From contig JANBVI010000057.1 of the NCBI GenBank assembly GCA_024239075.1, forward strand, positions 124,001-188,000: a DNA stretch of 64,000 nt, read 5' to 3'. The notes beneath the pieces are model-generated. The model was not told the DNA's origin. It saw only the letters and a list, made by a program, of their open reading frames with translations, and searched no databases. The position numbers and the translations under genes are program-made. This document shows, piece by piece, positions 11,430 through 28,831 of this stretch; positions within the stretch are counted from its first letter, which is position 1, and each line of letters starts with the position of its first letter. This DNA is from Fischerella sp. CENA71 (GTDB lineage: Bacteria > Cyanobacteriota > Cyanobacteriia > Cyanobacteriales > Nostocaceae).

Positions 11430-12212
11430 TCAATAACCATTTAGTCGTTGAAGCTTGGGAAGATTACTGATAACTTCAGCAGCTTCTTTTAATTTGTTTT
11501 CTTGAATCAAAGTCTCTGCTAACCCTAACCTAGCAGCAGGTATCGCCGGGTTAAGTTGAATCGCTTGTTCAAATGCATCTCTGGCGGCTTTATATTCCTC
11601 TTTTTCTAAGTAAATACGGCCCAACTTAATATAGGCAAGCACAAATTTAGGGTTCAAACTCAAAGCATGATTGAGTTCCGTGACAGCTTCTGATAACTTT
11701 CCTTTGTTTTTATATGCTTCTGCCATCAGCAAGTGAGCTAGAGACATTTCTGGATTTAAGCTCAAACTAATTCTCAATCTCTTTATGGCAGCATCATATT
11801 GCTTTTGCTCTATACACACTTGAGCAATACCCAACTGAGCTGGCGCAGACTTGGGATCTAAATTGAGAACATTCTCAAATTGTTCCAAAGCATGACTCAG
11901 CTTACCTTGTTTTAAATAAACACGTCCGACATTGAGTGGAGCCTCAGGCATCAAAGGATCTATTTGCATTACCGTCAGAAAATGATGCAACGCCTCCTGG
12001 TGATGTTTCTGTTTCAGATAAATATTTCCAGCAGCTAAATGAGCGTGAACCGAGCGGGAATTAATTTGTAGAACTGTTGTCAACTCTGCTAAAGCTTCAT
12101 TGAAACGTCTTTCTTTGGCTAAAGCCGCACTCAACTGCAATCGCTCTTGCTCAGTTAAAACTGTTGGTTCATCTTGCTTCAACCGTTTGATGCTGGGAGT
12201 AAACTTGTACAT
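11430..12212 (-). CDS. TPR-repeat protein
   Basis: 260-aa soluble protein made almost entirely of about seven tetratricopeptide repeats from residue 20 on, such as VHAHLAAGNIYLKQKHHQEA and AYIKLGRIYLEKEEYKAA. TPR arrays are protein-protein docking scaffolds; the partner is unknown. Its first 44 bp overlap the 3' end of cysC in another frame, implying translational coupling. No signal peptide is visible. Confidence 0.85.
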   Translation of the reverse strand: MYKFTPSIKRLKQDEPTVLTEQERLQLSAALAKERRFNEALAELTTVLQINSRSVHAHLAAGNIYLKQKHHQEALHHFLTVMQIDPLMPEAPLNVGRVYLKQGKLSHALEQFENVLNLDPKSAPAQLGIAQVCIEQKQYDAAIKRLRISLSLNPEMSLAHLLMAEAYKNKGKLSEAVTELNHALSLNPKFVLAYIKLGRIYLEKEEYKAARDAFEQAIQLNPAIPAARLGLAETLIQENKLKEAAEVISNLPKLQRLNGY

Positions 12213-12747
12213 AGCCCCTCTCTTCTAGCTTGACTAAAACTTTAGATATACTTTCTTCTAAGCTTTCTAAATCGGTTCTACACTCTATATCTGCATTTAA
12301 TGGTGGTTCGTAGGGATCATCAATCCCAGTAAAATTCTTAATTTGCCCAGAGCGGGCCTTTTGATACAGTCCTTTAATATCCCTGCGCTCACAGACATCT
12401 AGTGGTGCATTCACATAAACTTCGATAAAATTACCAATACGCTGCCGCATTTCTTCGCGAACGTCTCGATACGGTGAAATTGCTGAAACCAGGACAATCA
12501 CACCATTGCGAGACAGCAGACTGGCAACAAAACCCACACGACGCACGTTTTCATCTCGATCTTTCTTGCTGAATCCCAAATCCTTAGTGAGATTTTGGCG
12601 CACTACGTCTCCATCTAACACTTCAACTTTATAGCCTTGGGAACGCAGTATTTTCTCTAAACTGCTGGTAATTGTGGTCTTACCTGCACCACTCAAGCCG
12701 GTAAACCATACAGTAACACCGAGGTGCTGACGCTTACTCAATTCCAT
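12169..12747 (-). CDS. cysC: Adenylylsulfate (APS) kinase
   Basis: Phosphorylates APS to PAPS, the activated sulfate used for reduction or for sulfotransferases. The P-loop GLSGAGKT spans residues 17-24, and the kinase motifs LDGDVVRQNL, DENVRRVGFVASLL, FIEVYVNAPLDVCE and FTGIDDPYEPPLNADI are present. Length of 192 aa is normal. It is coupled to a TPR gene, and its 5' end faces the large lipid-synthase operon across a 400-bp spacer, so PAPS supply for a sulfated product is conceivable, although no sulfotransferase is seen. Confidence 0.92.
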   Translation of the reverse strand: MELSKRQHLGVTVWFTGLSGAGKTTITSSLEKILRSQGYKVEVLDGDVVRQNLTKDLGFSKKDRDENVRRVGFVASLLSRNGVIVLVSAISPYRDVREEMRQRIGNFIEVYVNAPLDVCERRDIKGLYQKARSGQIKNFTGIDDPYEPPLNADIECRTDLESLEESISKVLVKLEERGYVQVYSQHQTVEAR

Positions 12748-13147: not shown

Positions 13148-16100
13148 ATGAGTCAATTTATCTGTTTATCTATAAGTCCTATTAGTCTTACCCATCCTGG
13201 TATAGCTGTCGCTACCAGCCGTGCAGGTGGTATTGGTATTTTAGACACAGAATTTTGTCATAATCCACAACAAGCAAGTGATAATTTAGACCAACTATTA
13301 GCTTTAATTAATCCTAGTCAATCTATAGGGCTACGTTTATCAGCTGCTCAGGTTGCTTCTAGTCATGCACTGTTAACACGTCTGAGCAATCAACCTCACT
13401 GGTTAATCCTGTGTGGCTGGCATCCAAAGACACTAGAAGAAGTTATAGCATCACTGCCAACAGGGCGATCGCGTCAACTATTGTTAGAAATTACAGATGT
13501 CGAACAAGCTCAAGCTTTAGATTCCCAGGCACAAGACATTAATATAGATGGCTTGGTGGCTCGTGGACATGAAAGCGGAGGTTGGGTAGGTGAAGACTCC
13601 GCTTTTATTTTATTGCAGAAACTCTTAAGCATTCAGTCACGACCAGTCTATGTACAAGGTGGAATAGGAATTCATACAGCAGCAGCTTGCCGCGCCGTCG
13701 GAGCGGCTGGTGTAGTATTGGATGACCAGCTGTGGTTGATGCCAGAATCGCCCCTACCCCAGGAATGGCAACGTCATCTCAGTAATCTCAATGGTCAAGA
13801 AGCAGTAATATTGGGCGAAAGACTCAATCCTGGTTGTCGTGTGTTGTCCCGTCCGGGCTTTCCAGTAATTGCCAACCTACAGCAACTTGCTGACCAAATA
13901 GAAGTAAAAAACAACGATTCTGCTGGTGGTGTTCAAAATTGGCAGCAACAAGCGCAACCCTTAATCGGTTGGGATGAACCAGGAAAACTTGCTTGGCCAA
14001 TGGGACAAGCAGTAGGATTAGCAGCAATATTTCGCGATCGCTATCCTACAACTGGCAAACTGATTCAAGCCTTACTCCAACAAAGTCAAGAACAACTCAA
14101 AATCGCTCAACAACTGCGTCCTTTAGATGCCAATGCACCTTTAGCAGTCTCTCATGGCACAGAATATCCGATTGTTCAAGGGCCAATGACACGGGTGAGC
14201 GATACCGCAGAGTTTGCCAATGCAGTTTCCCAAGCCGGAGGACTGCCATTGTTGGCCTTAGCATTAATGCGTGGTTCGCAAGTACGCAGCTTACTGCAAA
14301 AAACCCAGCAACTATTAGGTAATCGACCTTGGGGAATTGGAATGCTGGGTTTTGTTTCCCACGCCTTGCGAGAAGAACAAATTCAAGCTGTGAAAGAATT
14401 TCAGCCGAAGTTTGCTTTGATTGCAGGTGGACGCCCTGATCAAGCAACCCATTTTGAAGCCCAAGGGATTGCGACGTATATCCATGTTCCTGCCCCACGC
14501 CTCTTGAAAATGTTTCTGGAGCAAGGAGCAAGACGTTTTGTTTTTGAAGGTCGCGAATGTGGTGGCCATGTTGGTCCTTTGAGTAGTTTTGTTCTCTGGG
14601 AAAGCATGATCGCCACCTTGTTAGCAGATGTAAAACTAGGTAAAGAATCAGAGATACATATTCTATTTGCTGGCGGTATTCATGATGCCCGTTCCGCAGC
14701 TATGATTTCCGCTATGGCTGCACCTTTAGTAGAACGAGGGATGCGGATAGGTGTGCTGATGGGAACAGCATATTTGTTTACCCAAGAAGCTGTTACCTGT
14801 GGTGCGATCGTCCCGAAATTTCAAGAACAAGCCTTAGCATGTAACCACACGATCAACTTAGAAACCGGACCTGGACACGCTAGTCGTTGTGTTGTCACTC
14901 CCTTTGCTCAAGAATTTTACACCACACGACGAGAAATGCTGGCAGCAGGTAATCCACCAGAGGAAATTAAAGATACCTTAGAAAACTTAACTTTGGGACG
15001 CTTACGCATTGCTTCCAAAGGATTGCAGCGCACAGCAGATGGTCAAGTGCAAACGGTAGATGAACCACAACAACTGACTGATGGTATGTACATGATCGGG
15101 CAAGTCGCTACTCTGCGCCATCAAGTTTGTACCGTGCGTGAATTGCACCAAGATGTATCGGAAATTGGTACTAAGCTGTTAATGTCTGCATTCGTGGAAC
15201 AAGATGGAGAAGAAGTCACCACTTGTCCCTCAGATATTGCCATTATTGGTATAGGGACATTGTTACCCCAAGCTCAGTACCCCGAAACCTTTTGGAACAA
15301 CATTCTCCGCAAAGTCGATGCGATTACAGAAATTCCTGCCCAGCGTTGGGACTGGCGATTGTATTATGATCCTGACCGAAACGCCAGAGATAAAGTTTAT
15401 TCTAAATGGGGTGGATTTTTAGAAGATGTACCTTTTGACCCACTGCGTTTTGGTATCCCACCCAAATCTTTAAAATCCATTGAACCAGTACAACTGCTGG
15501 CACTGGAGACAGTAAGGCGAGCTTTAGAAGATGCAGGTTACGAATCTGGTAACTTTGACCGCGAGCATACTTCTGTGATTCTGGGAGCCGGTGGTGGAAT
15601 TGCAGATTTGGGTCAGCAATACGCTACCCGTTGTGAAATTCCCCGGATGGTTGGTAAAACCTCACCAGAAGTTTGGGAGCGCTTACCAGAATGGACAGAA
15701 GAATCTTTCCCCGGTTTGTTGTTGAACGTCATTGCAGGTCGAGTCGCCAATCGTTTTGATTTTGGTGGTCACAACTTCACAGTTGATGCTGCTTGTGCTT
15801 CTTCTTTAGCAGCATTGGATTTAGCAGTGAAAGAACTCGAAAGTGGACGTAGTAATGTGGCGATCGCAGGTGGAGTTGATACCGTTCAAAGTCCCTTTGC
15901 TTACTTCTGCTTTAGCAAAACTCAGGCTCTTTCACCACGGGGAAAATCGCGGACTTTTGACAAAACAGCAGATGGGATTGCTATCAGTGAAGGTCTAGCC
16001 GTCGTTGTACTCAAACGCCTCGCCGACGCCGAACGAGATGGCGATCGCATTTACGGCGTGATCAAAGCCGTCGCCAGTTCCAGTGATGGTAAAGCTTTGG

Positions 16101-19100
16101 GGATGACAGCGCCTTTACCTGCTGGACAAATACGGGCTTTGAGACGTGCTTACAAAAAAGCTGGCTTTTCACCCAATACCTTGGGGTTATACGAAGCTCA
16201 TGGTACAGGTACAGCAGCAGGTGATCAAGCAGAGCTAGAAACTGTGATTAGTATCTTAAAAGAAAATCAAGCTAATCCCAAATCCTGTGCGATCGGCTCA
16301 GTCAAAACCTCCATCGGTCACACCAAGAGTACGGCGGGAATTGCTGGTGTGGTTAAAGCCGTTTTGGCGCTGCATCACAAAGTCAAACCCCCACATATGA
16401 ATGTTGATACACCCCTTGACCCAATCATAGATAGTGAAAGCCCGGTGTATCTACCCAAAGAAGCCCAACCCTGGCTAGCCCATCCCGATTACCCTCGTCG
16501 CGCTGGTGTCAGTGCTTTCGGTTTTGGTGGCACAAATTTCCACGCTGTTTTAGAAGAATATCGAGGTAATTGGCAAGCTGTAGCCCCAGGAAGTCATACA
16601 TGGCCGTGCGAATTATTTGTCTTCCGTGGCGAAAACCGCGCTGCATTGGTTCAAGCAGCCAAATCATTACTGACAGCTTTGAGTAATGGTGCAGAGCCAC
16701 GTTTACAGGATCTTGCTTACAGTTATGCTCAACGCGCCCAAGCACAAAAGAACCAGAATGCTTGTTTGACGATTGTCACTGAGAGTTTGTCAAAGTTACG
16801 CACAGATTTGGAAATAGCGATCGCCTACTTAGAGAATCGTCACTCTCAAACCTTACCACCTCACATTCAGTTTGGCATGGCAGATCCCCGAGCTAATCAG
16901 CAGATTGCCTTTTTGTTTCCAGGACAAGGATCACAATATTCTGGCATGGTTCGAGAAGTCGGGCTGTATTTCCATGAAATGCAGCACACTTTCGAGTTGG
17001 CAAATCGTCAATTGCGGCAGTACTTTCCTAAATTACTTAGTCAGTACGTGTATCCACCCAGTCCTTACAGTGAAGACGCAGAAAAACAAAACAATCAACT
17101 GCTCATGGATACCAGTATTGCTCAACCAGCAATTGGTACGGTGGAAGCAGGTTTTATGGATTTGGCAGCAAGGCTAGAACTAGAGCCAGTGATGGTTGGT
17201 GGACACAGCTTTGGTGAGTACGCCGCCCTCCACGCTGCGGGAGTTTTATCCAGAGAAGACTTTTTGAACTTGGCTGCAACTAGAGGACGGGTAATGGCAG
17301 AAGCCTGTGCTACTTCTGTAGGAGCCATGGCCGCAGTCAAGACTAGCCGGGAAGATTTACTCTTGCACCTCCGGAATTTTGAAGGAGTAGTGATTGCGAA
17401 CCAAAACGCTCCCCGCCAATCGGTGATTTCTGGAGAAAAACGGGCTGTTCAGCAGGTAGTAGATAGTTTAAACGCTGCTGGGATTACTGCTCGGATGTTG
17501 CCAGTTTCCGGTGCTTTTCACTCCCCCTCGGTAGCATCTGCCCAAGCTGCTTTAGCAGTGCCAATTGCTACCGTAACCATGCATTCTCCCCGCATCCCCA
17601 TTTACTCCAACTCTACAGCTTGTCCCTACAGTACAAATATCCATGAAATCCGTAGCCAGTTAACCGGGCATTTACTTAAACCAGTAGAGTTTTTGAGTCA
17701 AATTAATATTATGTATGCTGATGGAGCGCGGATTTTTGTCGAACTGGGGCCAAAAAATATTCTCACTAACCTAGTCGGTCAAATCCTCGCAGAAAAAGAA
17801 CATACTGCTGTGTCCTTGGATGGACAAGGTGGGGGATTGCGTGGTTTCTTGATGGCTTTGGGTACATTGTTCGTTCGTGGTGTCCACATCAAGTTAACAG
17901 CTTTATTCGATGGTCGTGAAGTAAAAGACCTCAACCTATCTAATTTGGTTGAGTTAACACAAAAACCTGCTTTACCTGCAACAGCTTGGTTAATTAATGG
18001 CGGTAGTGCTAGACCTCAAAATCAAACAGTTGGTTATACAGGTAAGTTACCACCCTTAAATCAACAAACAGCTGCGATCGCATCATTATCTAAATCAGCA
18101 AAATCCCCAGTCAATACCCAAAAACCAGAAATCCCTATGAATCCAAAAGCTATACAATCTACCCCAAATAACGCTCAGAATTTAAATGGTAATTCATCGC
18201 ATTTTCCTGCTCCTGCAAACACACCTCAAAATCAGCCAGCGATAGGAGCAGGTATCTTGCAAGCCTACCAAGCTTACCAAGAGACGATGCGTAAGTTCTT
18301 GGCAGTCCAAGAACAGGTGATGAGTCAGTTACTTGCTACAACTGCGCCTTCTACTCCAATACCACAGCGCAGACAACCAGAAAATCATTTACCAGCAGTC
18401 CCCCAACCAGTCGTTGTTCAGTCAAAAAATGGTTACGCTCATGCTTTGACATCCAATACTAACGGTAAGCAAGAGCAAGTTTTACCTGGTGTAACACACC
18501 CGACCACACCTGTTGCACCACCACAACCAGTAACCCCAGTACCAACACTATTATCTTCTACTCAGCCCTTGAGCGATCGCGCCAGTTTAACTCAGACTTT
18601 ATTAGGATTGGTCAGTGAACGTACAGGTTATCCCGCAGATATGTTGGGATTAGACCAAGATATGGAAGCAGAACTAGGTATTGACTCAATCAAGCGAGTT
18701 GAAATTTTGGGAGCATTCAACCAAGCTTTACCAGCCAAACTTGCAGATAGCGTTCGTCAGCAAATGGAGCAGTTGACTAGAGTCAAATCTCTCAACGGGA
18801 TTGTCGATCAAATTTTGGAAAATTTCCAACCTGCGACGACTACAAGTATCTCGACTAAATCTGTCGATGAATCGTTAAATCAAGCCGAACTAACTCAAAC
18901 TTTATTACAACTACTGAGCGATCGCACAGGCTACCCTATAGATATGTTGGGGTTAGACCAAGATTTAGAAGCAGAATTGGGTATTGATTCAATTAAGCGA
19001 GTCGAAATCTTAGGGGCGCTGCAAAAAAGTTTACCCCAGTTCCTAGCGGCTAGTGTACAGACACGCATGGAAAATTTGACCCGCGTGAAATCCCTCAACA

Positions 19101-19189
19101 GTATTGTTGAAGAAATTCTGGCAATATCAGCACAGGAGAACAGCCTGGGAAAGTCTCTAACCCAGTTGCAAGCATCCCACGCTACGTGA
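13148..19189 (+). CDS. Multidomain lipid/polyketide synthase NPD-NPD-KS-AT-ACP-ACP
   Basis: First enzyme of a PUFA-synthase/heterocyst-glycolipid-like system, 2013 aa. Two nitropropane-dioxygenase/PfaD-type TIM-barrel domains (about 1-225 and 335-640) come first; such domains act as FMN enoyl reductases in PUFA synthases. NPD2 keeps the CGGH motif (His474), while NPD1 has Trp146 at that position. A ketosynthase follows (696-1140) with Cys883, His1018 and His1058, then an acyltransferase (about 1252-1560) with nucleophile Ser1354 in GHSFGEYAA. A Pro/Gln-rich linker leads to tandem carrier domains with phosphopantetheine Ser1847 and Ser1948 in LGIDSIKRVEILGA. The tandem ACPs and their sequence style are like PfaA/HglE. 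The next gene overlaps the stop codon (TGATG). Confidence 0.88.
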   Translation: MSQFICLSISPISLTHPGIAVATSRAGGIGILDTEFCHNPQQASDNLDQLLALINPSQSIGLRLSAAQVASSHALLTRLSNQPHWLILCGWHPKTLEEVIASLPTGRSRQLLLEITDVEQAQALDSQAQDINIDGLVARGHESGGWVGEDSAFILLQKLLSIQSRPVYVQGGIGIHTAAACRAVGAAGVVLDDQLWLMPESPLPQEWQRHLSNLNGQEAVILGERLNPGCRVLSRPGFPVIANLQQLADQIEVKNNDSAGGVQNWQQQAQPLIGWDEPGKLAWPMGQAVGLAAIFRDRYPTTGKLIQALLQQSQEQLKIAQQLRPLDANAPLAVSHGTEYPIVQGPMTRVSDTAEFANAVSQAGGLPLLALALMRGSQVRSLLQKTQQLLGNRPWGIGMLGFVSHALREEQIQAVKEFQPKFALIAGGRPDQATHFEAQGIATYIHVPAPRLLKMFLEQGARRFVFEGRECGGHVGPLSSFVLWESMIATLLADVKLGKESEIHILFAGGIHDARSAAMISAMAAPLVERGMRIGVLMGTAYLFTQEAVTCGAIVPKFQEQALACNHTINLETGPGHASRCVVTPFAQEFYTTRREMLAAGNPPEEIKDTLENLTLGRLRIASKGLQRTADGQVQTVDEPQQLTDGMYMIGQVATLRHQVCTVRELHQDVSEIGTKLLMSAFVEQDGEEVTTCPSDIAIIGIGTLLPQAQYPETFWNNILRKVDAITEIPAQRWDWRLYYDPDRNARDKVYSKWGGFLEDVPFDPLRFGIPPKSLKSIEPVQLLALETVRRALEDAGYESGNFDREHTSVILGAGGGIADLGQQYATRCEIPRMVGKTSPEVWERLPEWTEESFPGLLLNVIAGRVANRFDFGGHNFTVDAACASSLAALDLAVKELESGRSNVAIAGGVDTVQSPFAYFCFSKTQALSPRGKSRTFDKTADGIAISEGLAVVVLKRLADAERDGDRIYGVIKAVASSSDGKALGMTAPLPAGQIRALRRAYKKAGFSPNTLGLYEAHGTGTAAGDQAELETVISILKENQANPKSCAIGSVKTSIGHTKSTAGIAGVVKAVLALHHKVKPPHMNVDTPLDPIIDSESPVYLPKEAQPWLAHPDYPRRAGVSAFGFGGTNFHAVLEEYRGNWQAVAPGSHTWPCELFVFRGENRAALVQAAKSLLTALSNGAEPRLQDLAYSYAQRAQAQKNQNACLTIVTESLSKLRTDLEIAIAYLENRHSQTLPPHIQFGMADPRANQQIAFLFPGQGSQYSGMVREVGLYFHEMQHTFELANRQLRQYFPKLLSQYVYPPSPYSEDAEKQNNQLLMDTSIAQPAIGTVEAGFMDLAARLELEPVMVGGHSFGEYAALHAAGVLSREDFLNLAATRGRVMAEACATSVGAMAAVKTSREDLLLHLRNFEGVVIANQNAPRQSVISGEKRAVQQVVDSLNAAGITARMLPVSGAFHSPSVASAQAALAVPIATVTMHSPRIPIYSNSTACPYSTNIHEIRSQLTGHLLKPVEFLSQINIMYADGARIFVELGPKNILTNLVGQILAEKEHTAVSLDGQGGGLRGFLMALGTLFVRGVHIKLTALFDGREVKDLNLSNLVELTQKPALPATAWLINGGSARPQNQTVGYTGKLPPLNQQTAAIASLSKSAKSPVNTQKPEIPMNPKAIQSTPNNAQNLNGNSSHFPAPANTPQNQPAIGAGILQAYQAYQETMRKFLAVQEQVMSQLLATTAPSTPIPQRRQPENHLPAVPQPVVVQSKNGYAHALTSNTNGKQEQVLPGVTHPTTPVAPPQPVTPVPTLLSSTQPLSDRASLTQTLLGLVSERTGYPADMLGLDQDMEAELGIDSIKRVEILGAFNQALPAKLADSVRQQMEQLTRVKSLNGIVDQILENFQPATTTSISTKSVDESLNQAELTQTLLQLLSDRTGYPIDMLGLDQDLEAELGIDSIKRVEILGALQKSLPQFLAASVQTRMENLTRVKSLNSIVEEILAISAQENSLGKSLTQLQASHAT

Positions 19190-21939
19190 TGCAATCACAG
19201 TTAGAAGCTTTACCTCCACAGCAGCTGGCTTCACTTACAGGTTTATTCCTAATTACTGAAGATGGACTATCAGTAGCTTCCCATGTTGCCACAGCATTGC
19301 AACAAAAAGGAGCCACTACAGCTATCCTCAACACCTCTACCTTAGCTGAACCAGAAAAACTAGAGAAAGCGATCGCTCAATTACGACAACTTCACGGTTC
19401 TGTTACTGGCATTGTACATCTCGCTCCCCTCGCTGTCATTCACCAAGAAGACGCGGAGACGCAAAGAAGGGGAGACGCGGAGCGCGATTTTTCTCAATCG
19501 TCTCAAGAATTTGAATCTCCTGGATTGACACATGAACTATCCCCGCGTCACCATGTCTCCCAACGCCAGGTGCTACAACGGGGGGAACCCCCGCAACGCA
19601 CTGGCTCCTCTCCGCGTCCTCTTCAACTTGAATCCCTTGGATTGACACATGAACTGTCCCCGCGTCCCCCCATCTTCCACTCTCCGCGTCCTCTTCAACT
19701 ACCCGAAACTCTCGCTGGCTGGCGACAAATCACCCAAATTCAGTCCAAGAGTCTATTTCAATTACTACATCTGTGTGCTGCTGACTTGCAACAAGCAGGA
19801 CAAAAACAACTCGGTTGTGTAGTAGCAGCTTCTTTACTGGGAGGATATTTCGGTCGTCAAGGTAAAGGCGGTTCTGGTTTACCCACAGGCGGTAGTAATA
19901 CTGGTTTCCTCAAAACCTTAGTAACTGAATGGCCTGGGGTTCGAGCCAAAGCCATTGACTTTGACACCAGCCTATCTCCTGCTAGTATTGCCGAGCAGAT
20001 TGTCAACGAGTTACTCAGTAGTGGTCGTTTAGAAGTCGGCTATCCTCAAGGCGAACGAACCATTTTCCAAACTGTAACAGCAACTTTGACGAAGGATAAT
20101 CAACCTGCACAGCTAACGCCAAATAATAATTGGGTAGTATTAGTTACAGGTGGGGCTAGGGGAATTACTGCTGAAATTGCTCATGATTTAGCAAAATATG
20201 GCTTAACACTGGTGATTACAGGAAGAGCCGCAGAGCCAGCAGCAGAAACAGCAGAAACAGCAGGTATTGAAGATATAACCGTACTGCGGCGAGTATTACT
20301 GCAAAAAGCGCGGAATTTGGAATTAAGCCCAACGCCAATCCAGATAGAGCGACAACTACAGGATTTGTTACGCGATCGCGCCATTACTAACAACCTCAAA
20401 CAGTTTCGCCAAGCTGGCGCTCAGGTAGAGTATTTAAAAGCGGATGTCAGAAATGCCGAAGAGTTTGGTGCTGCTATCAACAGTATTTATACTCGTTACG
20501 ATCGCTTAGATGCGGTGGTTCATGGTGCTGGTATCATCGAAGACAAGCTCATTGCTGACAAAAGCTTTGCATCTTTGGAGCGGGTTTTTGACACCAAAGT
20601 AGATAGTACCTTTTTGTTGTACCGCTATCTTAGACCAGAATCCCTGAAGTTGCTTGTCTTGTTTAGCTCTGTTGCAGGGCGCTATGGTAATCGCGGTCAA
20701 TCTGATTATGCTGCTGCTAATGAAGTGATGAATCGCTTTGCTTGGTTAATGGATCACTCTTGGCCAAATACACGAGTTGTAGCCATCAACTGGGGCCCTT
20801 GGGATACAACTGGTATGGCTTCGGAAGAAGTCAAAAGCCAATTCCGAGAACGTGGTATAATTTCTATCCCCTTAGCCGCAGGGCGTCAGTTCTTTGTTAA
20901 CGAATTACATTACGGGCGCAAAGGTGAAGCCGAGGTAGTTGCAGGAGAAGGGCCTTGGGAAGCCTACGAAGGATTGGGGATTGGGGAACGGGGATCGGGG
21001 ATCGGGGATCGGGGACACGGGGACAAGGGAGACACGGGGAATTGGGAACAGATAAGAGCGAAATCTCCGTATCTTTTATTACCATCTTCGCCACAACTGC
21101 AACTCAACGGTACTGTCACCCTTGAACATACCTTTTCTCTAGCTACTGACCCCTATTTAGAAGATCATCGCTTAGATGGTAAACCTGTTCTCCCTGCGGC
21201 GGCTGCTTTGGAGTGGTTCGCTGAATTTGTCCAGTCAGCTTGGCCGGAATGGCAAGTCACAGAAGTTTGCCAACTCAGAGCTTTGCGGGGTTTAGTACTA
21301 GATACAGAAGCAGGGAAAAAAGTTTTATTTCAGGCTCGTGCTTCTAGCCATGCTGATTCAGAATCCTTACAGATAGCAGCAGAAATCGTTGATCCAGAAC
21401 TCAATCTGCCATTTTATCGAGCTTCTGTGATTCTGCGTCCACAACTAGAAGAACCATTGGCAAGCGAAATTTTACTATTATCTTCCGGACAAAAGCTACA
21501 ACCTACTGTAGCGTATGATACGTATCTGTTTCATGGTCAACGTTTCCAGTTAATCACAGCCATTGATCGGGTAAATGATGTGGGTATTGATGCCCACGTT
21601 ATACCTAGCCAACCGACGGCGTGGTTGAACAGTCAACCAGTGGCTAATTGGTTATTTGACCCTGGCTTGATTGATGTGGCTCCTCAGTTAGCGATTGTAT
21701 GGGCGCGATCGCAGCGAGGAACTACAGCTTTACCTTCCCGATTTGGTAGCGTCAAGCGTTTTGGTCAATCAATACGCTATAGCCCACTCCAGATTGCCTT
21801 GCGAGTCAATCGCTTTGATGACCACAGCCTAAATTACGATGCTGTTTTTATCGATGAAAACGGCTATGTACGCTTGCATCTCAAGGACATTGAGAGTACC
21901 TGCAACACTGCTCTGAATCGTTTAGCCAGCCACCTATGA
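19189..21939 (+). CDS. Synthase component: structural KR half, ketoreductase and dehydratase
   Basis: 916-aa partner of the preceding protein. Residues 1-300 resemble the pseudo-KR structural subdomain. The catalytic ketoreductase (about 313-600) has the NADPH loop TGGARGIT and active residues Ser494, Tyr507 and Asn511. A hot-dog dehydratase follows (about 640-900) with His660 in DHRLDGKPVLP. The two would reduce and dehydrate beta-ketoacyl chains on the tandem ACPs. Two in-frame blocks are repeat DNA: nt 19443-19700 and nt 20971-21048, the latter between KR and DH. A GTG at 19186 is an alternative start; the ATG at 19189 shares a base with the upstream TGA. Its stop overlaps the next ATG. 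Confidence 0.85.
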   Translation: MQSQLEALPPQQLASLTGLFLITEDGLSVASHVATALQQKGATTAILNTSTLAEPEKLEKAIAQLRQLHGSVTGIVHLAPLAVIHQEDAETQRRGDAERDFSQSSQEFESPGLTHELSPRHHVSQRQVLQRGEPPQRTGSSPRPLQLESLGLTHELSPRPPIFHSPRPLQLPETLAGWRQITQIQSKSLFQLLHLCAADLQQAGQKQLGCVVAASLLGGYFGRQGKGGSGLPTGGSNTGFLKTLVTEWPGVRAKAIDFDTSLSPASIAEQIVNELLSSGRLEVGYPQGERTIFQTVTATLTKDNQPAQLTPNNNWVVLVTGGARGITAEIAHDLAKYGLTLVITGRAAEPAAETAETAGIEDITVLRRVLLQKARNLELSPTPIQIERQLQDLLRDRAITNNLKQFRQAGAQVEYLKADVRNAEEFGAAINSIYTRYDRLDAVVHGAGIIEDKLIADKSFASLERVFDTKVDSTFLLYRYLRPESLKLLVLFSSVAGRYGNRGQSDYAAANEVMNRFAWLMDHSWPNTRVVAINWGPWDTTGMASEEVKSQFRERGIISIPLAAGRQFFVNELHYGRKGEAEVVAGEGPWEAYEGLGIGERGSGIGDRGHGDKGDTGNWEQIRAKSPYLLLPSSPQLQLNGTVTLEHTFSLATDPYLEDHRLDGKPVLPAAAALEWFAEFVQSAWPEWQVTEVCQLRALRGLVLDTEAGKKVLFQARASSHADSESLQIAAEIVDPELNLPFYRASVILRPQLEEPLASEILLLSSGQKLQPTVAYDTYLFHGQRFQLITAIDRVNDVGIDAHVIPSQPTAWLNSQPVANWLFDPGLIDVAPQLAIVWARSQRGTTALPSRFGSVKRFGQSIRYSPLQIALRVNRFDDHSLNYDAVFIDENGYVRLHLKDIESTCNTALNRLASHL
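19443..19700. repeat. In-frame genomic repeat block in the KR/DH gene
   Basis: Begins with GACGCGGAGACGC-type repeat DNA and contains a 37-bp direct repeat (19513-19549 and 19630-19666). It encodes the recurring peptide GLTHELSPR. Related DNA occurs in the next gene at 24895-24995. Confidence 0.75.
20971..21048. repeat. GGGGATCGGGGA-type repeat inside a coding region
   Basis: The intergenic low-complexity motif (GGGGATTGGGGAACGGGGAT and relatives) runs in frame for 26 codons between KR and DH, encoding a Gly/Asp/Arg-rich linker. Confidence 0.85.
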
Positions 21940-24900
21940 TTGTGTCAAATTCATCTCCCGACATTGCCATTGTTGGTATGTCTGCCTTATTTCCTGGAGC
22001 TAAGGATCTGCGTACCTACTGGCAAAACATCTTAAATCAGGTGAATGCGGTTCAGGATGCACCTGATCAATGGGCAAAGCCTTATTTTGACCCTGATTCA
22101 ACGGCAAATGACCGCATCTACACCCGTAAAGGTGGTTTTTTAGGAGATTTGGCGGAATTCAATCCCCTGGAATTTGGGATTATGCCAAATTCGGTGGATG
22201 GTGGGGAACCAGATCATTTTCTGGCTCTTAAACTGGCGTGGGAAGCGCTGCAAGATGCTGGCTATATTGATCGCCCTTTTAACCGAGAAAAAACAGGTAT
22301 TATTCTGGGTCGTGGGACTTATATTAATCGGGGCTACAACACATTATTGCAACATGGTCAGATTGTAGATCAGACGTTGGATTTGCTGAGGCAATTGCAT
22401 CCAGAGTTAGATGAAACTACTTTACATGAGATCCGCAAACAGCTAAAAGCTAGCTTGCCACCTTTCACGCCGGAGATGGCACCCGGACTAGTGCCGAATG
22501 TAATTACGGGTCGCATTGCTAATCGCCTCAACTTGATGGGGCCGAATTACATTATTGATGCAGCTTGCGCTTCTTCTTTGATTGCTGTGGAACTGGCGAT
22601 GAAAGAGTTATTAAGCGATCGCTGTGACATGGTTTTAGCGGGGGGTGTTCATGCTTCAACACCGCCGCAAATTAACATGATTTTCTGTCAGCTGGGCGCT
22701 TTGTCTCGCAGCCATATTAAACCTTTTGACACCAAGGCGAGTGGGACGCTGCTGGGGGAAGGTTTGGGAATTTTAGTTTTGAAACGGTTACGCGATGCTG
22801 AAAAAGATGGCGATCGCATTTATGCTGTTCTTAAAGGTGTGGGTAGTTCCAGCGATGGCAAGGCTTTGGGACTTTTAGCACCGCGTTTGGAAGGGGAAGT
22901 GCTAGCCCTCCAACGTGCCTACCAAGAAAGTGGTGTTGATCCGACTACAGTCGGGATGATTGAAGCACATGGTACAGGTATTGCCTTGGGAGATCAAACA
23001 GAGGTGCGTTCCTTGATGCAAATTTTTGGTCAACGTCAGGAGCTACCTAAGTGTGCTTTGGGTTCTGTGAAATCAATGATTGGTCACTGCATTCCCGCAG
23101 CTGGTGCCGCAGGGATAATAAAAACGGCGTTGGCATTATACCACAAAATTTTGCCGCCAACATTGTGTGATGAAGTTGCTCCTGCCCTAGAAATCGAAAA
23201 AACTCCTTTTTATATTAATACTCAGGCACGACCCTGGATTCATGGCGATCGCTCTACACCGAGACGGGCGGGTGTCAATTCTTTTGGGTTTGGTGGGATT
23301 AATGCTCATGCGGTTTTAGAAGAGTATCCCAGCCAAGCTGTACAATCAACCAAATTATTGCACCAACAATGGCCTACAGAACTGCTGTTGTTTTCAGGTG
23401 AGCATCGAGCAGCTTTGCTAGAGTCTATTCACCGAATTCAACAACTTCTGCAAAATCATTCTCAAGTAACTCTGGCGGAAATTGCTTACACCTTATCAAC
23501 TCAATCTATCGCTTCCCATCGTTTGGCTATAGTCGCCAAAGATATTCCAGAATTACAGAAAAAACTTAGCCAAGCGGTTGAGAAATTAGAAAATTCTGCA
23601 AAAAGCAGATTACAAACTCGCAATGGCATTTACTTTGCAGAAGTTGATGCCAATGTCAATCCTGGCAAGACAGCTTTTATATTTCCTGGTGAAGGGTCGC
23701 AATATCCTCAGATGCTGGCTGATTTGTGCCTGTATTTCCCGCAAGTACGCCAGTGGTTTGACTTCTTAGATGCGACTTTTAGTGAGAGACGGGCTTGTTT
23801 ACCCAGCCAGCTAATTTTTCTGCCACCCACCAGTTTAACCCAAACAGAACGTAACTATGCCCAGCAACGATTATTTGGTATGGATGTCGCTTCGGAAACG
23901 GTGTTTACTGCCAGCATGGCATTATACGAATTGCTATGTAATTTGGGTGTTGGTTGTGATGTCATGGTGGGACACAGCACAGGCGAGAATGCAGCACTGA
24001 TTGCTTCTGGTACTGTTCGCTTGTCTGAGCGGATGGAATTGATGTCCAAAATGCGCCACCTCAATCAGATTTACCTCGATTTAGAGATGGGAAACAATAT
24101 TCCCAAGGGCGCACTTTTGACGGTTGGGGCGATCGCACCTGAGATTTTGCAACAAGTATTAGATGAGTTTGATGGTCGTTTACATTTGGCAATGGACAAT
24201 TGTCCCAATCAGGTGGTTCTATTTGGTAGTGTCAATGATATTGATGCAGCCACCAGTAAGTTACAAGCATTGGGTGGTATCTGTACCCGTTTACCTTTTG
24301 ACCGTGCCTATCACACACCCCTGTTTGCACCTGTAGGGGCTGCTTTTCTGGAATTTTACAACGATTTGGAGATCAATTCTGGTTATACACCTCTTTATAG
24401 TTGTGCAACTGCGGCACTTTTTCCTGATGAACCGGAAGCAATTCGGGCGTTAGCAGCACAACAGTGGTCTAGTCGAGTGCGTTTTCGAGAAACAGTTCTC
24501 CAACTTTATGAACAGGGAGTGAAAAATTTTATTGAGGTTGGACCTAGTAGTAATTTGACAGGCTTTGTCAGTGATATTCTTCATGGTCGAGAACACCAAG
24601 CCATAGCCTGCAACAGTCAACGATTATCTGGTTTGGAACAGATTCAGCATTTGCTAGGACGGCTGTTTGTCAATGGGAATGGTGTAGATACAAGCGCGTT
24701 GTACTTGCACCGACAAATTACTCCTGTGAGCCTAGATACGAAAATGCAAGTTGGGGAAACCCAAAAATCTAGCCCAGTTCTGGAACTGACAATGCCGATT
24801 ATGCAGTTGCAGCCTGATTTTGTCAATCATGTCCGGGAAAAATTGCAAACAAGCAAAAGTGAGTCTGTTTCTGATTTGGGTGCGATCGCATCAACCCAAG

Positions 24901-26855
24901 AAGACGCCCAGACACGGAGAACAAGAGACGCGGAGCCATCGTCGCAAGAATTTGAATCATCTGGGTTAACAGATGAACTGTCCCCATTTCCTCTTCCAGA
25001 AGAACAAGAGCAGCGCTTATCAATTGTTTTAGATCACTTTAACTTGATGCAAGAATTCCTTGATAGTCAAGCACGGGTGATGGGCGCGTTACACTCTCAC
25101 CTGGCTGGTGTAGACAATGGGGTAAATGATGATTTTGTCAATATGTCTTTACCATTTTCAGATATCAATAATTGGCAAACATCCAGTTTTGATGAAACTT
25201 TTGCTCTATTAGGTGAGATTCTGGAATGCGATCGCCAGTATCTTTACTGTCAACGTCGCTTTGATATGCAGCGAGATATTTTTCTCTACGACCATACTAT
25301 TGGCGGTCAAGTATCTCAGAGGCGTTTAGACCTGTTTCCCCTACCTGTGATTCCGTTCACTGTGAGTATGGAAACCCTCGCGGAAGCGGCAGTTTATTTG
25401 CTGGGTAAAGATCAAGTCGTGGTTGGACTTTACGACCTACGTGGTTATCGCTGGCTGGCTCTTGATCGTGGTGAACTCACTCTCAAGATTAAAGCATGGT
25501 TACAACCCCAACCAGACCCGCAAACTTGGGAAGTTAAAGTACAACTGTTTCAAGTAGGGGAAAACAGTAATATCGATCACTTGGTATTTGAAGGTAATGT
25601 CCGTCTGGCAAATCAATTTCCAGCATTTCCTGCACCACTACCTTTTCACCTAGAGCGACCTGCACCTTCGCGCTGGTCTGATACCGATTTATACTGCACG
25701 GGGATGTTCCATGGCCCGCGTTTCCAAGGTGTGAAGCACATTCGCCAATGGGGTTTGCAGGGTATTGAAGCTGATTTGGAAGCGATCGCCATTGAGGATT
25801 TCTTTAGTCATACCCAGCAGCCAGTTTTCCAAATCGATGCAGGTTTACTTGATGCTGCTGGACAATTAGTCGGGTACTGGGTTTCAGAGCAGTTTGGCAC
25901 TGATTTTAATGTTTTTCCCTTCCAAGTACGGGCATTTCATCAGTATGTCTCACCCCTACCACCCAAAAGTGCGGTATTATGTCGCGGCTTAATGCATTTT
26001 ACTAGTGAGTGGCAAACCGAAGCTAGCTTTGATTTTCTTGATACCACAGGTCGGGTAATTGCTCGCTTGGAAGGATGGCAAGATCGTTACTTCAGTGTGC
26101 CACACAGATATTACCAATGTCGCTTGCATCCCCAAACTGCTTACTTATCAGATCCTTGGCTGCAAGTAGAAACTCAACTGGTAATACGCCGGGTTGAACC
26201 GTTCCCTGAGCATTTTCTTGATGATTCTTGGAGTATTTGGAAACGTGTTTTAGCACACCTAATACTTAATGAATCAGAACGAAATTTCTGGTACAATCTA
26301 CTACAAAAAGGTATAGAACGTACAGATTGGTTAATTAGTTGCATTGCTGCTAAAGATACCATCCGTCAGTGGGCAAAGCAAAACTTTAATTTGCAACTTG
26401 CTCCTATTGATATAGAAGTTATCAGCACTACCACAGGTAAACTTGCTGTCCGTTGTCCAGAATTAGAGGCGGTGGCGGGAGTTTTACCAAACATTGCCAT
26501 TAGTCACGCTCAAGGTTTTGTAATCGCCGCGATCGCGCATTCAGGAAAATCCATTGGTATTCATATCGAGCATTTTGACTCTGTGCATACCGATCATTTA
26601 ATTGCTACTGCCTTTAGTGAATCAGAACTACAACAACTTCCCCAACTACAGCACAGTGACATGATTGGACTGTGGTGTGCAAAGGAAGCCGTAGCTCAAG
26701 CACTAGGTAAAGGATTGCAAAACGATCTGACTCAATGGTTAATCACCCATATTTCCAGCGATGGACAATGGATCACTGTTAATTATGACGGTGAATCATT
26801 TGTCGTCCAACTTTGTTATGGCGATCGCCAAGTCCTAGCAATATGTCAATACTAG
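21936..26855 (+). CDS. Multidomain synthase KS-AT-DH with C-terminal PPTase-like domain
   Basis: 1639-aa third synthase subunit. The ketosynthase (about 5-440) has Cys211, His345 and His384, so it is not a degenerate chain-length factor. An acyltransferase-like domain (about 560-880) has Ser681 in GHSTGENAAL. After a repeat-derived linker (about 985-1025), a dehydratase spans about 1110-1390, with His1120 in YDHTIGG and Asp1306 in DAGLLDAAGQ. Residues 1400-1639 resemble an Sfp-type 4'-phosphopantetheinyl transferase, with WCAKEA (Lys1583, Glu1584); the usual metal-binding Asp is His1543 in GIHIE. A fused PPTase could activate the ACPs in cis. ATGA overlap couples it to the previous gene. Confidence 0.83.
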   Translation: MIVSNSSPDIAIVGMSALFPGAKDLRTYWQNILNQVNAVQDAPDQWAKPYFDPDSTANDRIYTRKGGFLGDLAEFNPLEFGIMPNSVDGGEPDHFLALKLAWEALQDAGYIDRPFNREKTGIILGRGTYINRGYNTLLQHGQIVDQTLDLLRQLHPELDETTLHEIRKQLKASLPPFTPEMAPGLVPNVITGRIANRLNLMGPNYIIDAACASSLIAVELAMKELLSDRCDMVLAGGVHASTPPQINMIFCQLGALSRSHIKPFDTKASGTLLGEGLGILVLKRLRDAEKDGDRIYAVLKGVGSSSDGKALGLLAPRLEGEVLALQRAYQESGVDPTTVGMIEAHGTGIALGDQTEVRSLMQIFGQRQELPKCALGSVKSMIGHCIPAAGAAGIIKTALALYHKILPPTLCDEVAPALEIEKTPFYINTQARPWIHGDRSTPRRAGVNSFGFGGINAHAVLEEYPSQAVQSTKLLHQQWPTELLLFSGEHRAALLESIHRIQQLLQNHSQVTLAEIAYTLSTQSIASHRLAIVAKDIPELQKKLSQAVEKLENSAKSRLQTRNGIYFAEVDANVNPGKTAFIFPGEGSQYPQMLADLCLYFPQVRQWFDFLDATFSERRACLPSQLIFLPPTSLTQTERNYAQQRLFGMDVASETVFTASMALYELLCNLGVGCDVMVGHSTGENAALIASGTVRLSERMELMSKMRHLNQIYLDLEMGNNIPKGALLTVGAIAPEILQQVLDEFDGRLHLAMDNCPNQVVLFGSVNDIDAATSKLQALGGICTRLPFDRAYHTPLFAPVGAAFLEFYNDLEINSGYTPLYSCATAALFPDEPEAIRALAAQQWSSRVRFRETVLQLYEQGVKNFIEVGPSSNLTGFVSDILHGREHQAIACNSQRLSGLEQIQHLLGRLFVNGNGVDTSALYLHRQITPVSLDTKMQVGETQKSSPVLELTMPIMQLQPDFVNHVREKLQTSKSESVSDLGAIASTQEDAQTRRTRDAEPSSQEFESSGLTDELSPFPLPEEQEQRLSIVLDHFNLMQEFLDSQARVMGALHSHLAGVDNGVNDDFVNMSLPFSDINNWQTSSFDETFALLGEILECDRQYLYCQRRFDMQRDIFLYDHTIGGQVSQRRLDLFPLPVIPFTVSMETLAEAAVYLLGKDQVVVGLYDLRGYRWLALDRGELTLKIKAWLQPQPDPQTWEVKVQLFQVGENSNIDHLVFEGNVRLANQFPAFPAPLPFHLERPAPSRWSDTDLYCTGMFHGPRFQGVKHIRQWGLQGIEADLEAIAIEDFFSHTQQPVFQIDAGLLDAAGQLVGYWVSEQFGTDFNVFPFQVRAFHQYVSPLPPKSAVLCRGLMHFTSEWQTEASFDFLDTTGRVIARLEGWQDRYFSVPHRYYQCRLHPQTAYLSDPWLQVETQLVIRRVEPFPEHFLDDSWSIWKRVLAHLILNESERNFWYNLLQKGIERTDWLISCIAAKDTIRQWAKQNFNLQLAPIDIEVISTTTGKLAVRCPELEAVAGVLPNIAISHAQGFVIAAIAHSGKSIGIHIEHFDSVHTDHLIATAFSESELQQLPQLQHSDMIGLWCAKEAVAQALGKGLQNDLTQWLITHISSDGQWITVNYDGESFVVQLCYGDRQVLAICQY
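24895..24995. repeat. In-frame genomic repeat block in the KS-AT-DH gene
   Basis: Contains GACGCCCAGACACGGAGA-type DNA and a third copy (24954-24985) of the element duplicated at 19513 and 19630. It lies in the AT-DH linker and encodes GLTDELSP. Confidence 0.75.
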
Positions 26856-26945
26856 GGATCGGGGAATAGGGGACAAGGAAGACAAGGGAGAATTATTTCA
26901 CAAGTCTCTTCCCAATGACCAATGACCAACAAGCAATTTCTCTTT
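26856..26945. repeat. Low-complexity repeats before the free ACP gene
   Basis: GGGATCGGGGAATAGGGGA and AATGACCAATGACCAA motifs lie between two operon genes. The repeat offers a spurious upstream ATG (26922) for the ACP. Confidence 0.75.
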
Positions 26946-27236
26946 ATGCAAGTCATAGACCTTCCTATTCAATCAACAATTATTGAGATTCTCAAAGACA
27001 TTATCCAAGACTGGGATTTGGAAGCAGATGAGATCAGTCTCGAAACCCAGTTAGTAGCAGACCTCAGTTTTGCTTCTATCGATATCATTCATTTTGTTGT
27101 TGCTATAGAAGACCATTTCAAGCAGAAATTCGGGTTTGCTCAATTATTGATGCAGGATGGTCGCTATGTTGATGACCTGAGTGTAGGGCAAATCGTGGAT
27201 TTTGTGTCTAAGCAATCAAACAAAGGGGTTTTATGA
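26946..27236 (+). CDS. Free-standing acyl carrier protein
   Basis: 96-aa acidic helical protein with the carrier-protein core LVADLSFASIDIIHF; the Ser before Ile-Asp is the likely phosphopantetheine site (residue 44). It would hold a growing or finished acyl chain as a thioester. The start at 26946 (MQVIDLPIQ) is preferred because the codons before it are dispersed repeat. Its TGA overlaps the ATG of the following phosphatase-superfamily gene, which suggests that the two products act in sequence. A specialised ACP for off-loading or starter loading is inferred. Confidence 0.82.
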   Translation: MQVIDLPIQSTIIEILKDIIQDWDLEADEISLETQLVADLSFASIDIIHFVVAIEDHFKQKFGFAQLLMQDGRYVDDLSVGQIVDFVSKQSNKGVL

Positions 27237-28831
27237 CAAAAACGCTATTTATTGGCTTAGATGGCGCGACTTTTACCGTGATCAATGAAATGATCCGCGA
27301 CCTACCGGATGTAGGTGTGACGATGCCTTTTTTGAAACAATTTATTGAAAAAGGTGCGCGGGCGAAATTGTTATCTACTCCCAATCCTTTGACCCCTCCA
27401 GCTTGGGTTTCGATTATGACAGGTCGCACGCCGGGAAATCACGGTGTTTATGATTTTATTCGTGCTGAAGAAAAAGCCGGGGACGTTTATTTTACGCTGT
27501 ATGATGCCAGAGATATTCGTACAGAAACTATTTGGGCGATCGCTAGTCGGCAAAATTGCACTGTTGTAGCTTTAAACTTTCCTTTCACTGCTCCACCTCT
27601 ACCGATTAATGGAGCTTTAGTACCAGGTTTTGTCCCGTGGAAACACTTACGCCGCAACACAACTCCACTAAATTTGTACGATCGCCTCAAGGAAATTCCA
27701 GATTTTGATCCCAAAGAATTAGCTTGGGACTTTGACCGTGAAAAACAAACTTTGGAGGTGATGACTGATGAGGATTTAGAAAACTGGGTTCGCTATCACA
27801 TCCCCCGCGATGAACAGTGGTTCCGAATCGCCGAGAAACTTCTCAAAGAAGATAATCCCGATTTGATGGCAGTATTGTTTGATGGTGTAGACAAACTCCA
27901 GCACCAAATCTGGATGTTTCTTGATCCTGCTTTGATAAACGCTAATCCTTCTCCTTGGGAAAAACGGATGCGGGAACTGTGTCTAGAGTATTTCCGCAAG
28001 TTAGATACTTATATTCAACGCTTGGTAGAACTTGCTGGTCCTGAAGCTCAAGTATTTATGGCTTCAGACCACGGCTTTACAGCCACAACAGAAGTAGTTC
28101 GCATCAATACCTTTCTGCACGAAAAAGGTTATCTCGTATGGAAGGAAACAGACGATTCCCAAGCGAGTAATAGACGTGAATCAAGTTGGTTTGCCAATCT
28201 AGATTGGGACAAAACTCTCGCATACTGTCGTACTCCCTCCAGCAACGGTATAACAATTCGTGTCGCTGAAAAACCAGGAAATCCAGGTATTCAGCCTTCA
28301 GAATACGAAGTCTTCCGAGAAAAATTAATTCGTGATTTGGAGAATTTTCGAGATCCAAATACAGGAGAAAGGATTATCCAAGCAATTCATAAACGGGAAG
28401 ATATTTATTCTGGTGCTGCTATGCATGAAGCACCTGACTTGACTTTAGTGCTACGCGACTATGGTTTTGTCTCCATCAAAAATTACGAACCTGCGGTTGA
28501 ACCACGCGAGACACCAGCAGGGACTCACCATCCTGAAGGTATTTTCTTAGCAGGAGGATATGGAATTAAATCTAACTATGAAGGAAACCGGCAAAATGTT
28601 GTAGATGTTCCAGCAGCCTTATTATATAGTCTTAATCTTCCTATTCCAGCAGATTTTGAAGGTTACGTACCTGAAGATTTCTTTACTGAATCTCATCTGA
28701 ATTTCAAACCAGTAAAAATTGGTGTGTCTACTGTTACAGATGAAGAAATAAACTTAGCAACAGATGATATTAGTGAAGATGAAAAACAACAAATTATTGC
28801 TCAACTACAAATGCTTGGCTATATGGAATAG
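27233..28831 (+). CDS. Alkaline-phosphatase-superfamily phosphohydrolase/transferase
   Basis: 532-aa member of the AP/nucleotide pyrophosphatase-phosphodiesterase superfamily. Metal ligands and nucleophile are visible: Asp10 in GLDGATF, Thr54 in NPLTPPAWVSIMTGR, Asp and His in FDGVDKLQH, the pair in MASDHGF, and His in AGTHHPEG. It has no signal peptide, so it should be cytoplasmic. Superfamily members hydrolyse or transfer phosphate, phosphodiester or sulfate groups. Because its ATG overlaps the ACP stop and it ends the synthase operon, a tailoring or head-group role on the lipid product is inferred; no substrate can be named. Confidence 0.82.
   Translation: MTKTLFIGLDGATFTVINEMIRDLPDVGVTMPFLKQFIEKGARAKLLSTPNPLTPPAWVSIMTGRTPGNHGVYDFIRAEEKAGDVYFTLYDARDIRTETIWAIASRQNCTVVALNFPFTAPPLPINGALVPGFVPWKHLRRNTTPLNLYDRLKEIPDFDPKELAWDFDREKQTLEVMTDEDLENWVRYHIPRDEQWFRIAEKLLKEDNPDLMAVLFDGVDKLQHQIWMFLDPALINANPSPWEKRMRELCLEYFRKLDTYIQRLVELAGPEAQVFMASDHGFTATTEVVRINTFLHEKGYLVWKETDDSQASNRRESSWFANLDWDKTLAYCRTPSSNGITIRVAEKPGNPGIQPSEYEVFREKLIRDLENFRDPNTGERIIQAIHKREDIYSGAAMHEAPDLTLVLRDYGFVSIKNYEPAVEPRETPAGTHHPEGIFLAGGYGIKSNYEGNRQNVVDVPAALLYSLNLPIPADFEGYVPEDFFTESHLNFKPVKIGVSTVTDEEINLATDDISEDEKQQIIAQLQMLGYME

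Follow-up and report, generated by a model that had tools for sequence, protein, structure and literature searches.

The window analysed here, a stretch of 64,000 nucleotides from Fischerella sp. CENA71 (contig JANBVI010000057.1; G000:C57:124001-188000, within a 7.47 Mb cyanobacterial genome), carries a five-gene cluster, A to E, that we assign with high confidence to the Type O/Type P-like lipid synthases and not to the heterocyst glycolipid (Hgl) or polyunsaturated fatty acid (PUFA) synthases. The assignment is based on a ketosynthase (KS) tree and on the order of the KS, enoyl reductase (ER), acyltransferase (AT), acyl carrier protein (ACP), ketoreductase (KR), dehydratase (DH) and phosphopantetheinyl transferase (PPTase) domains. 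Judged from sequence, we see about an even chance that the product would be a sulfated long-chain acyl lipid modified on the ACP D, and not a heterocyst glycolipid or PUFA. The genome is close to Westiellopsis and to Fischerella muscicola PCC 73103, with 93% identity in the C protein. The genes and the PPTase domain of C are:

13148..19189, forward strand: gene A, 2013 aa, ER-ER-KS-AT-ACP-ACP (Pfam, NCBIfam, motif alignments)
19186..21939, forward strand: gene B, 917 aa, psiKR-KR-DH, psiKR plausible (Pfam, NCBIfam)
21936..26855, forward strand: gene C, 1639 aa, KS-AT-DH-PPTase (Pfam, motif alignments)
26211..26852, forward strand: PPTase domain of C, probably impaired (motif alignment of 60 rows)
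26922..27236, forward strand: gene D, 104 aa, free-standing ACP, proposed sulfation carrier (PF00550)
27233..28831, forward strand: gene E, 532 aa, predicted nucleotide pyrophosphatase/phosphodiesterase (NPP)-type phosphodiesterase of the alkaline phosphatase superfamily (PF01663, fold match)

All five frames are open and co-directional, with 4-base overlaps at A/B, B/C, and D/E and a gap of 66 bp between C and D, which bears out the gene set and boundaries of the original prediction. Pfam analysis of A identified nitronate monooxygenase (NMO) in three stretches, followed by KS, AT, and two PP-binding domains. B contains KR and DH (PS-DH), C contains KS, AT, DH, and ACPS, and D consists of a PP-binding domain. 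From residue 239 onward, B aligned to the KR-DH end of the NCBIfam PfaA model, and A and B represent matches to the two ends of this model; they are fused in most proteobacterial relatives and split in the window. The predicted psiKR-KR-DH order of B was confirmed by Pfam for KR and DH, while a psiKR upstream of the KR is plausible and its stretch has no Pfam match of its own. Alignments of 46 to 73 domain copies show that the window motifs of both KS (C-H-H), both AT (GHSxGE), both DH, both tandem ACPs (LGIDSIK), and the KR are intact. The AT arginine, which is expected in malonyl transferases and reads malonyl, is kept in 60/62 rows for A and in 53/73 rows, window included, for C. No CLF was seen in C, where the KS and AT motifs are complete by Pfam and alignment. 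Inside B, positions 20971-21049 form a tandem repeat of 7-base units such as GGATCGG/GGGGAAC that encodes an in-frame Gly-rich stretch, and further repeat-like linker stretches are visible by eye in the B and C translations.

The ER domains of A had been described as PfaD-like. Both score as FabK/nitronate monooxygenase, and the PfaD model is absent among the best 25 of 36 NCBIfam matches for A; a separate gene of the same genome matches the PfaD family with 657 bits. A PfaD identity of these domains is therefore not supported. Their N-terminal position, regarded as odd at first, is not unusual for this branch, since the Type P genes on the Beijerinckia indica plasmid pBIND02 (L124) show the same ER-ER-KS-AT-ACP-ACP order, continued by psiKR-KR and complemented by a separate DH-PPTase protein. 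By comparison with the Beijerinckia cluster only, the window shows the Type P domain order. The Type P cluster differs in having two type III polyketide synthase (PKS) genes in between, no KS-AT before DH-PPTase, and no DH found after the KR; the genes annotated in the stretch covered, an incomplete table, include none for a sulfotransferase, an ACP, or an alkaline-phosphatase-family protein. Type P systems (Azotobacter, arsABCD alkyl chains) produce C22-C26 chains. As Type P is the closest characterised architecture, the cluster could serve as an alkyl-chain donor for a type III PKS, as for the phenolic lipids of Azotobacter and Beijerinckia. We consider this quite improbable: no type III PKS was found in the 25 window and 20 neighbour proteins scanned, no genome-wide search having been made.

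In the KS tree, built from 43 chosen rows of which four were flagged on long branches, the first KS of the window falls into an 18-row group (100/98). Nevskiales rows are nested among the cyanobacteria in this group, which suggests horizontal transfer; the Actibacterium and Aphanocapsa lilacina rows also lie within the KS family of the window. The first KS and the Type P row share a 26-row group (88/91, not starred) that excludes the first KS domains encoded by the genome's two hgl/pfa-type clusters on contigs C64 and C88, regions that we used only as hgl/pfa-type references. The first of these, G000:C64:122000-160000 (L080, L081), harbours a second pfa-type cluster, in which a PfaD-family gene and a PfaB/KS gene occur alongside genes for a DevBCA-type exporter and for a StlD/DarB-like (dialkylresorcinol) ketosynthase. 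The other, G000:C88:185000-222000 (L082, L083), contains a third pfa/hgl-type cluster, including a protein with two KS-like stretches and an AT (KS-CLF-AT-like).

The cluster had been called HGL-like, and it does share the iterative KS-AT-ACP-ACP-KR core with hgl (Type F) synthases; the KS of A is also 46-47% identical to the first KS of the C64 and C88 clusters. However, it has no KS-CLF-AT and no PfaD-type ER, its KS belongs to another group, it occurs in Synechococcus, Leptolyngbyaceae, Aphanocapsa, and Proteobacteria, and the genome already possesses two separate hgl/pfa-type clusters. On domain content, KS tree, and distribution, the Hgl reading was rejected, and a heterocyst-glycolipid-like synthase is very improbable. 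Synechococcus, Leptolyngbyaceae, and Aphanocapsa are without heterocysts, and the occurrence in these taxa and in Proteobacteria makes a heterocyst or nitrogen role unlikely. A PUFA synthase (PfaA-E, Types A/B) was rejected as well: the DH domains are PS-DH and not FabA-type, there is no CLF, the PfaA model scores A with 942.7 bits, under its cut-off of 1010.1, and the distribution speaks against it. The originally suggested comparison of domain order with Pfa and Hgl clusters matched neither type. The available part of PMC4247773 describes cyanobacterial PUFA-type clusters CF-1 to CF-3, which may include the present cluster.

Type O synthases were described from Gloeobacter violaceus and from the marine alphaproteobacteria Dinoroseobacter shibae and Parvularcula bermudensis, with an unknown product, and the PPTase motif P1b' (hShxH), rather than (F/S)NxSH, is reported for them (Shulse and Allen, 2011; PMC3098273, available part). 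None of these three genomes is among the 69 loci that we obtained by scanning named genomes with gene C. The taxa would fit Type O (Aphanocapsa lilacina HA4352-LM1, L070; Actibacterium; a Rhodovulum assembly). The P1b' motif as described fits 47/60 aligned PPTases, the window's own not fully; the misfits are the window and five Fischerella-group kin, in which the Ser is replaced by Ala (IAISH or IAISQ), together with seven others that lack the His. The window differs from Type O in this Ala, in a PPTase that looks impaired, and in the A/B split. The hglEA homologues of G. violaceus and A. lilacina HA4352-LM1 are described as oldest-branching and of unknown product, and both species as basally branching cyanobacteria, in the available part of PMC11804610. 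No product for Type O was found in the literature searched.

The PPTase of C lacks the Mg-binding Asp, with GIHIE in place of GIDxE. This Asp is kept in 55/60 aligned PPTase rows, including L014 and all 54 rows outside the Fischerella group, and lost in 5/6 Fischerella-group copies, being replaced by His in the window, L009, L010, and L011 and by Asn in L015. In the window, the Lys of the KExxxK motif is also replaced, by Gln, and two further PPTase-family genes are present elsewhere in the genome. This suggests that the built-in PPTase is probably decaying and that the ACPs are likely served by another PPTase, so that a PPTase of the cluster's own, as predicted, is doubtful.

To describe the gene neighbourhood across phyla, we analysed the flanks of the 69 loci by tblastn. 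The flanks were limited to 10 kb and several of the contigs are short, which makes the neighbour counts lower bounds; genes in relatives were called with a simple codon-usage script, and matches of c2, F, and SDR are members of large families. Relatives of C are found in cyanobacteria, including Synechococcus, Leptolyngbyaceae, and Aphanocapsa, in Nevskiales and related gammaproteobacteria, in alphaproteobacteria (Actibacterium etc., and a Rhodovulum assembly), in Desulfobulbaceae and other deltaproteobacteria, in Planctomycetota, and in Chitinivibrionales. By Pfam, the neighbour proteins were named Abhydrolase_1 (c2), Sulfatase/alkaline phosphatase superfamily (c4), hexapeptide (c6), Sulfotransfer_3 (c8), PHB-esterase-like (c9), CoA-transferase III (c11), and methyltransferase (c14); c7 received no name. 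D and E are each present at 51/69 loci, a c2-like hydrolase at 45/69 (a generic family, so that some may be unrelated hydrolases), c4 at 31/69, c7 at 28/69, a sulfotransferase-like gene at 22/69, F, encoding HlyD-type domains, at 21/69, and an APS kinase at 5/69. With relatives of C at 69 loci and D and E at 51 each, the association is far beyond chance. D, E, c4, c7, c2, and F represent a new accessory set that recurs across phyla, joined in cyanobacteria by the sulfotransferase. On a short contig labelled Tatlockia (L039), part of a gene with 64% identity to C is present, probably through a metagenome binning error.

We compared 13 named cyanobacterial genomes that carry C. All 13 encode the ER-ER part of A, 12 the sulfotransferase (E <= 1e-10), and 11 c7, the two without c7 being Fischerella PCC 9431 and the L012 metagenome assembly. 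At the PCC 9431 locus (L011), C, D, E, and the hydrolase gene H lie together, while A is located elsewhere in the genome and not upstream of C, neither sulfotransferase nor c7 was detected genome-wide, and F is missing from the locus; this cluster is apparently in decay. In an even sample of 292 cyanobacterial genomes, our own included, the DH-PPTase part of C (E <= 1e-20) occurs in 3 and c7 (E <= 1e-30) in 4, all 3 C-bearing genomes among them. The fourth, G202, has a diverged synthase with its own sulfotransferases, c7, and an F-like gene. E occurs in 9 genomes of this sample, in 2 as a close homologue (>=70% identity, i.e., at least 70%) and in 7 at only 28-35%.

The window strain carries sulfotransferase, c7, and c4 together on another contig (G000:C64, ~351.6-358.6 kb; L079):

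L079, 9611-10519: sulfotransferase
L079, following: a 444-aa protein and a 400-aa protein
L079, 13743-15260: c7
L079, 15818-16642: c4

The original prediction could not link these genes to the synthase, as they are outside the window in this strain. In Westiellopsis (L122), F. muscicola (L121), and F. thermalis (L123), the three genes are found downstream of the synthase cluster and are flanked on the far side by the same two genes as in L079, which we take to be cyd-like. This arrangement suggests that one ancestral locus was split in the window strain.

Among solved structures, those nearest to the sulfotransferase of F. thermalis, which shares 87% identity with that of the window strain, are the CurM sulfotransferase 4gbm (8e-28) and 4gox (3e-22); the latter we take to be the sulfotransferase of an olefin synthase (OLS). 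The loop for 3'-phosphoadenosine 5'-phosphosulfate (PAPS; S-P-R-S) is kept in 4/4 aligned free cyanobacterial sulfotransferases (window strain, L014, L021, and L036). L021 encodes an ACP-sulfotransferase fusion (PP-binding 7e-6 and Sulfotransfer_3) in which the ACP part shares 57% identity with D. L017 shows the same ACP-sulfotransferase order by alignment to D (34%, 3e-16), with no PP-binding match, and a further fusion in L114 is indicated by alignment evidence only. These fusions link a D-like ACP with sulfation more strongly than a shared neighbourhood would. An APS kinase, which would supply PAPS, adjoins the synthase in L009, L010, L012, L013, and L015, and in G021 lies ~50 bp downstream of the ACP gene D on the same strand. 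Literature searches found no description of a sulfotransferase linked to a Pfa-like synthase; the available part of PMC4558948, on Subsection V cyanobacteria, uses the OLS sulfotransferase only as a query for hydrocarbon genes.

Several observations weigh against a sulfated product. The PAPS-loop Arg is lost in four gammaproteobacterial sulfotransferase homologues (L022, L067, L050, and L066), and the sequence of a fifth, L024, is truncated at this point; sulfation may therefore be a cyanobacterial addition, or absent elsewhere. In the 292-genome sample, the sulfotransferase (E <= 1e-30) occurs in only 2 genomes, the window's own, i.e., 1/3 synthase genomes, and G202; G021 and G283 have synthase and c7 and no sulfotransferase at this cut-off. 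G283 has no E at the cut-off either, and G021 has the APS kinase beside D. APS kinase is, moreover, also a housekeeping gene and present at only 5/69 loci. E and c4 misfit a simple sulfation scheme, and c7 is without known function. The L022, L067, L050, and L066 homologues still adjoin c7, and another function is possible for them.

The main chemical rival is an olefin-synthase-like termination, in which the sulfotransferase would activate the beta-hydroxyacyl chain on D and a hydrolase would free it, with decarboxylation and loss of sulfate, giving a long terminal alkene; the CurM/OLS sulfotransferase and thioesterase are described to convert a beta-hydroxyacyl chain in this manner (PMC3903477, available part). 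The sulfotransferases resemble CurM/OLS in sequence family and PAPS loop, but here the enzyme either stands alone or is joined to a free ACP, beside a Pfa-like synthase. Along with the solved relatives 4gbm and 4gox and the ACP fusions, the c2-like alpha/beta hydrolase at 45/69 loci is compatible with such an ending, and 3qit (listed as Polyketide synthase), presumably the CurM thioesterase, is among the matches of the Trichocoleus c2 (7.9e-10). However, c2 is a generic hydrolase with many matches closer than 3qit, and as candidates for the thioesterase of a CurM/OLS-type terminator only generic alpha/beta hydrolases are linked to the cluster. An olefin would also leave E, c4, c7, and F unexplained, and for Fischerella PCC 7414 and Gloeobacter violaceus, the hydrocarbons that the available part of PMC3903477 names are methylheptadecanes. 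We consider this ending unlikely relative to a sulfated lipid.

E matches Phosphodiest (PF01663) at 1.6e-43, and its AlphaFold model (mean pLDDT 86) found ENPP6, phosphonoacetate hydrolase, and a bacterial NPP as best folds, with a TM score of ~0.5 by query length; a sequence search of solved structures gave no match for the window's E. D10, T54, D220, H224, D279, H280, and H432 are invariant in 22/22 sequences and presumably form the two-metal site of an NPP with the Thr as nucleophile. By alignment and model, this predicted site is complete, as expected of an NPP-type enzyme. The original prediction of an iterative secondary-lipid synthase that has both tandem ACPs and a free ACP, together with an alkaline phosphatase superfamily enzyme and an unknown product, is supported. 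Between the window strain and gammaproteobacteria, E and c4 are mostly 59-67% identical, compared with 48-54% for A and mostly 41-52% for C. Lower values for E, 39-50%, were obtained with alphaproteobacteria, with two cyanobacteria (L018, L034), and with two deltaproteobacterial contigs (L042, L076), and in a plasmid search with E the best 20 of 57 records were haloarchaeal (24-27% identity).

The stronger conservation of E and c4, the complete two-metal site, and the ENPP6-like fold would also be consistent with a phosphorus-containing product, for which E (and c4) would act as phosphodiesterase or phospho-transferase on a lipid or acyl-ACP and the sulfotransferase would add a lineage-specific decoration. 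No enzyme of phosphate lipids, such as a kinase or CDP-alcohol transferase, is named among the 20 neighbour proteins scanned, and c4 also matches Sulfatase (PF00884), although it presumably is without the Cys that becomes formylglycine. A phosphorus product is an unlikely explanation in our view. For c7, the AlphaFold model of the Trichocoleus sequence (L026; mean pLDDT 81) is a beta-propeller. A sequence search of solved structures gave no match for c7 of L026, and the fold search pointed to no single family or function, the best 50 of 1054 matches being mostly unrelated beta-propellers.

The window cluster itself probably extends in both directions, with the APS kinase and a tetratricopeptide repeat (TPR) protein upstream and an HlyD-type protein and a hydrolase downstream:

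11430..12212, reverse strand: TPR-repeat protein, tentative cluster neighbour (TPR match and homologues near related clusters)
12169..12747, reverse strand: APS kinase (PAPS supply), divergent from the synthase (PF01583 1.1e-66)
29053..31707, forward strand: gene F, HlyD-type domains, proposed export (HlyD_D23/HlyD_3)
31770..32291, forward strand: gene G, small protein, Fischerella group only (homologues in L009, L010, L012, L014, L015)
32389..33576, forward strand: gene H, PAF-acetylhydrolase/chlorophyllase-like hydrolase (PF03403 8.4e-13; homologues in L009-L012, L014, L015)

TPR homologues of 87-95% identity lie upstream of the cluster in L009, L010 (partial), L012, and L015, and in the distant cluster of G021 one of 47% adjoins c4 and is one gene away from E; TPR proteins are promiscuous. 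F homologues share 26-100% identity over the matched part with the window's F or a gammaproteobacterial F as query. The N-terminus of H appears lipoprotein-like by eye. The statement that no thioesterase is present holds within the five genes and not beyond them, as the alpha/beta hydrolase gene H follows just downstream and c2-like hydrolases occur at 45/69 loci.

Returning to the sulfated lipid, we propose the following route. As a Type O/P-like type I fatty-acid/polyketide synthase of the iterative, reducing kind, A, B, and C would together assemble malonyl units into a long acyl chain that is largely reduced, with ACPs activated by PPTases encoded elsewhere. The chain or a hydroxyacyl intermediate would be passed to D, probably via the second AT, and in cyanobacteria a PAPS-dependent sulfotransferase (encoded on another contig here) would sulfate a hydroxyl on the D-bound chain. 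E, c4, and a hydrolase may trim or release the product, and F may aid its export. The most far-reaching version, i.e., one conserved pathway of Type O-like synthases, E, c4, c7, c2, and the carrier D to an undescribed lipid class in cyanobacteria, Nevskiales, Rhodobacteraceae, and deltaproteobacteria, with ACP-bound sulfation in cyanobacteria and possible release by E, through cleavage of the phosphopantetheine link of D in place of thioester cleavage by a thioesterase, is speculative and rather improbable as a whole.

The accessory genes provide a concrete chemical hypothesis for the cyanobacterial branch, namely sulfation on a dedicated ACP, and 'hgl-like' or 'PUFA' labels on such clusters can mislead. 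If true, the hypothesis would add a class of sulfated long-chain cyanobacterial lipids and a beta-propeller family tied to lipid synthesis.

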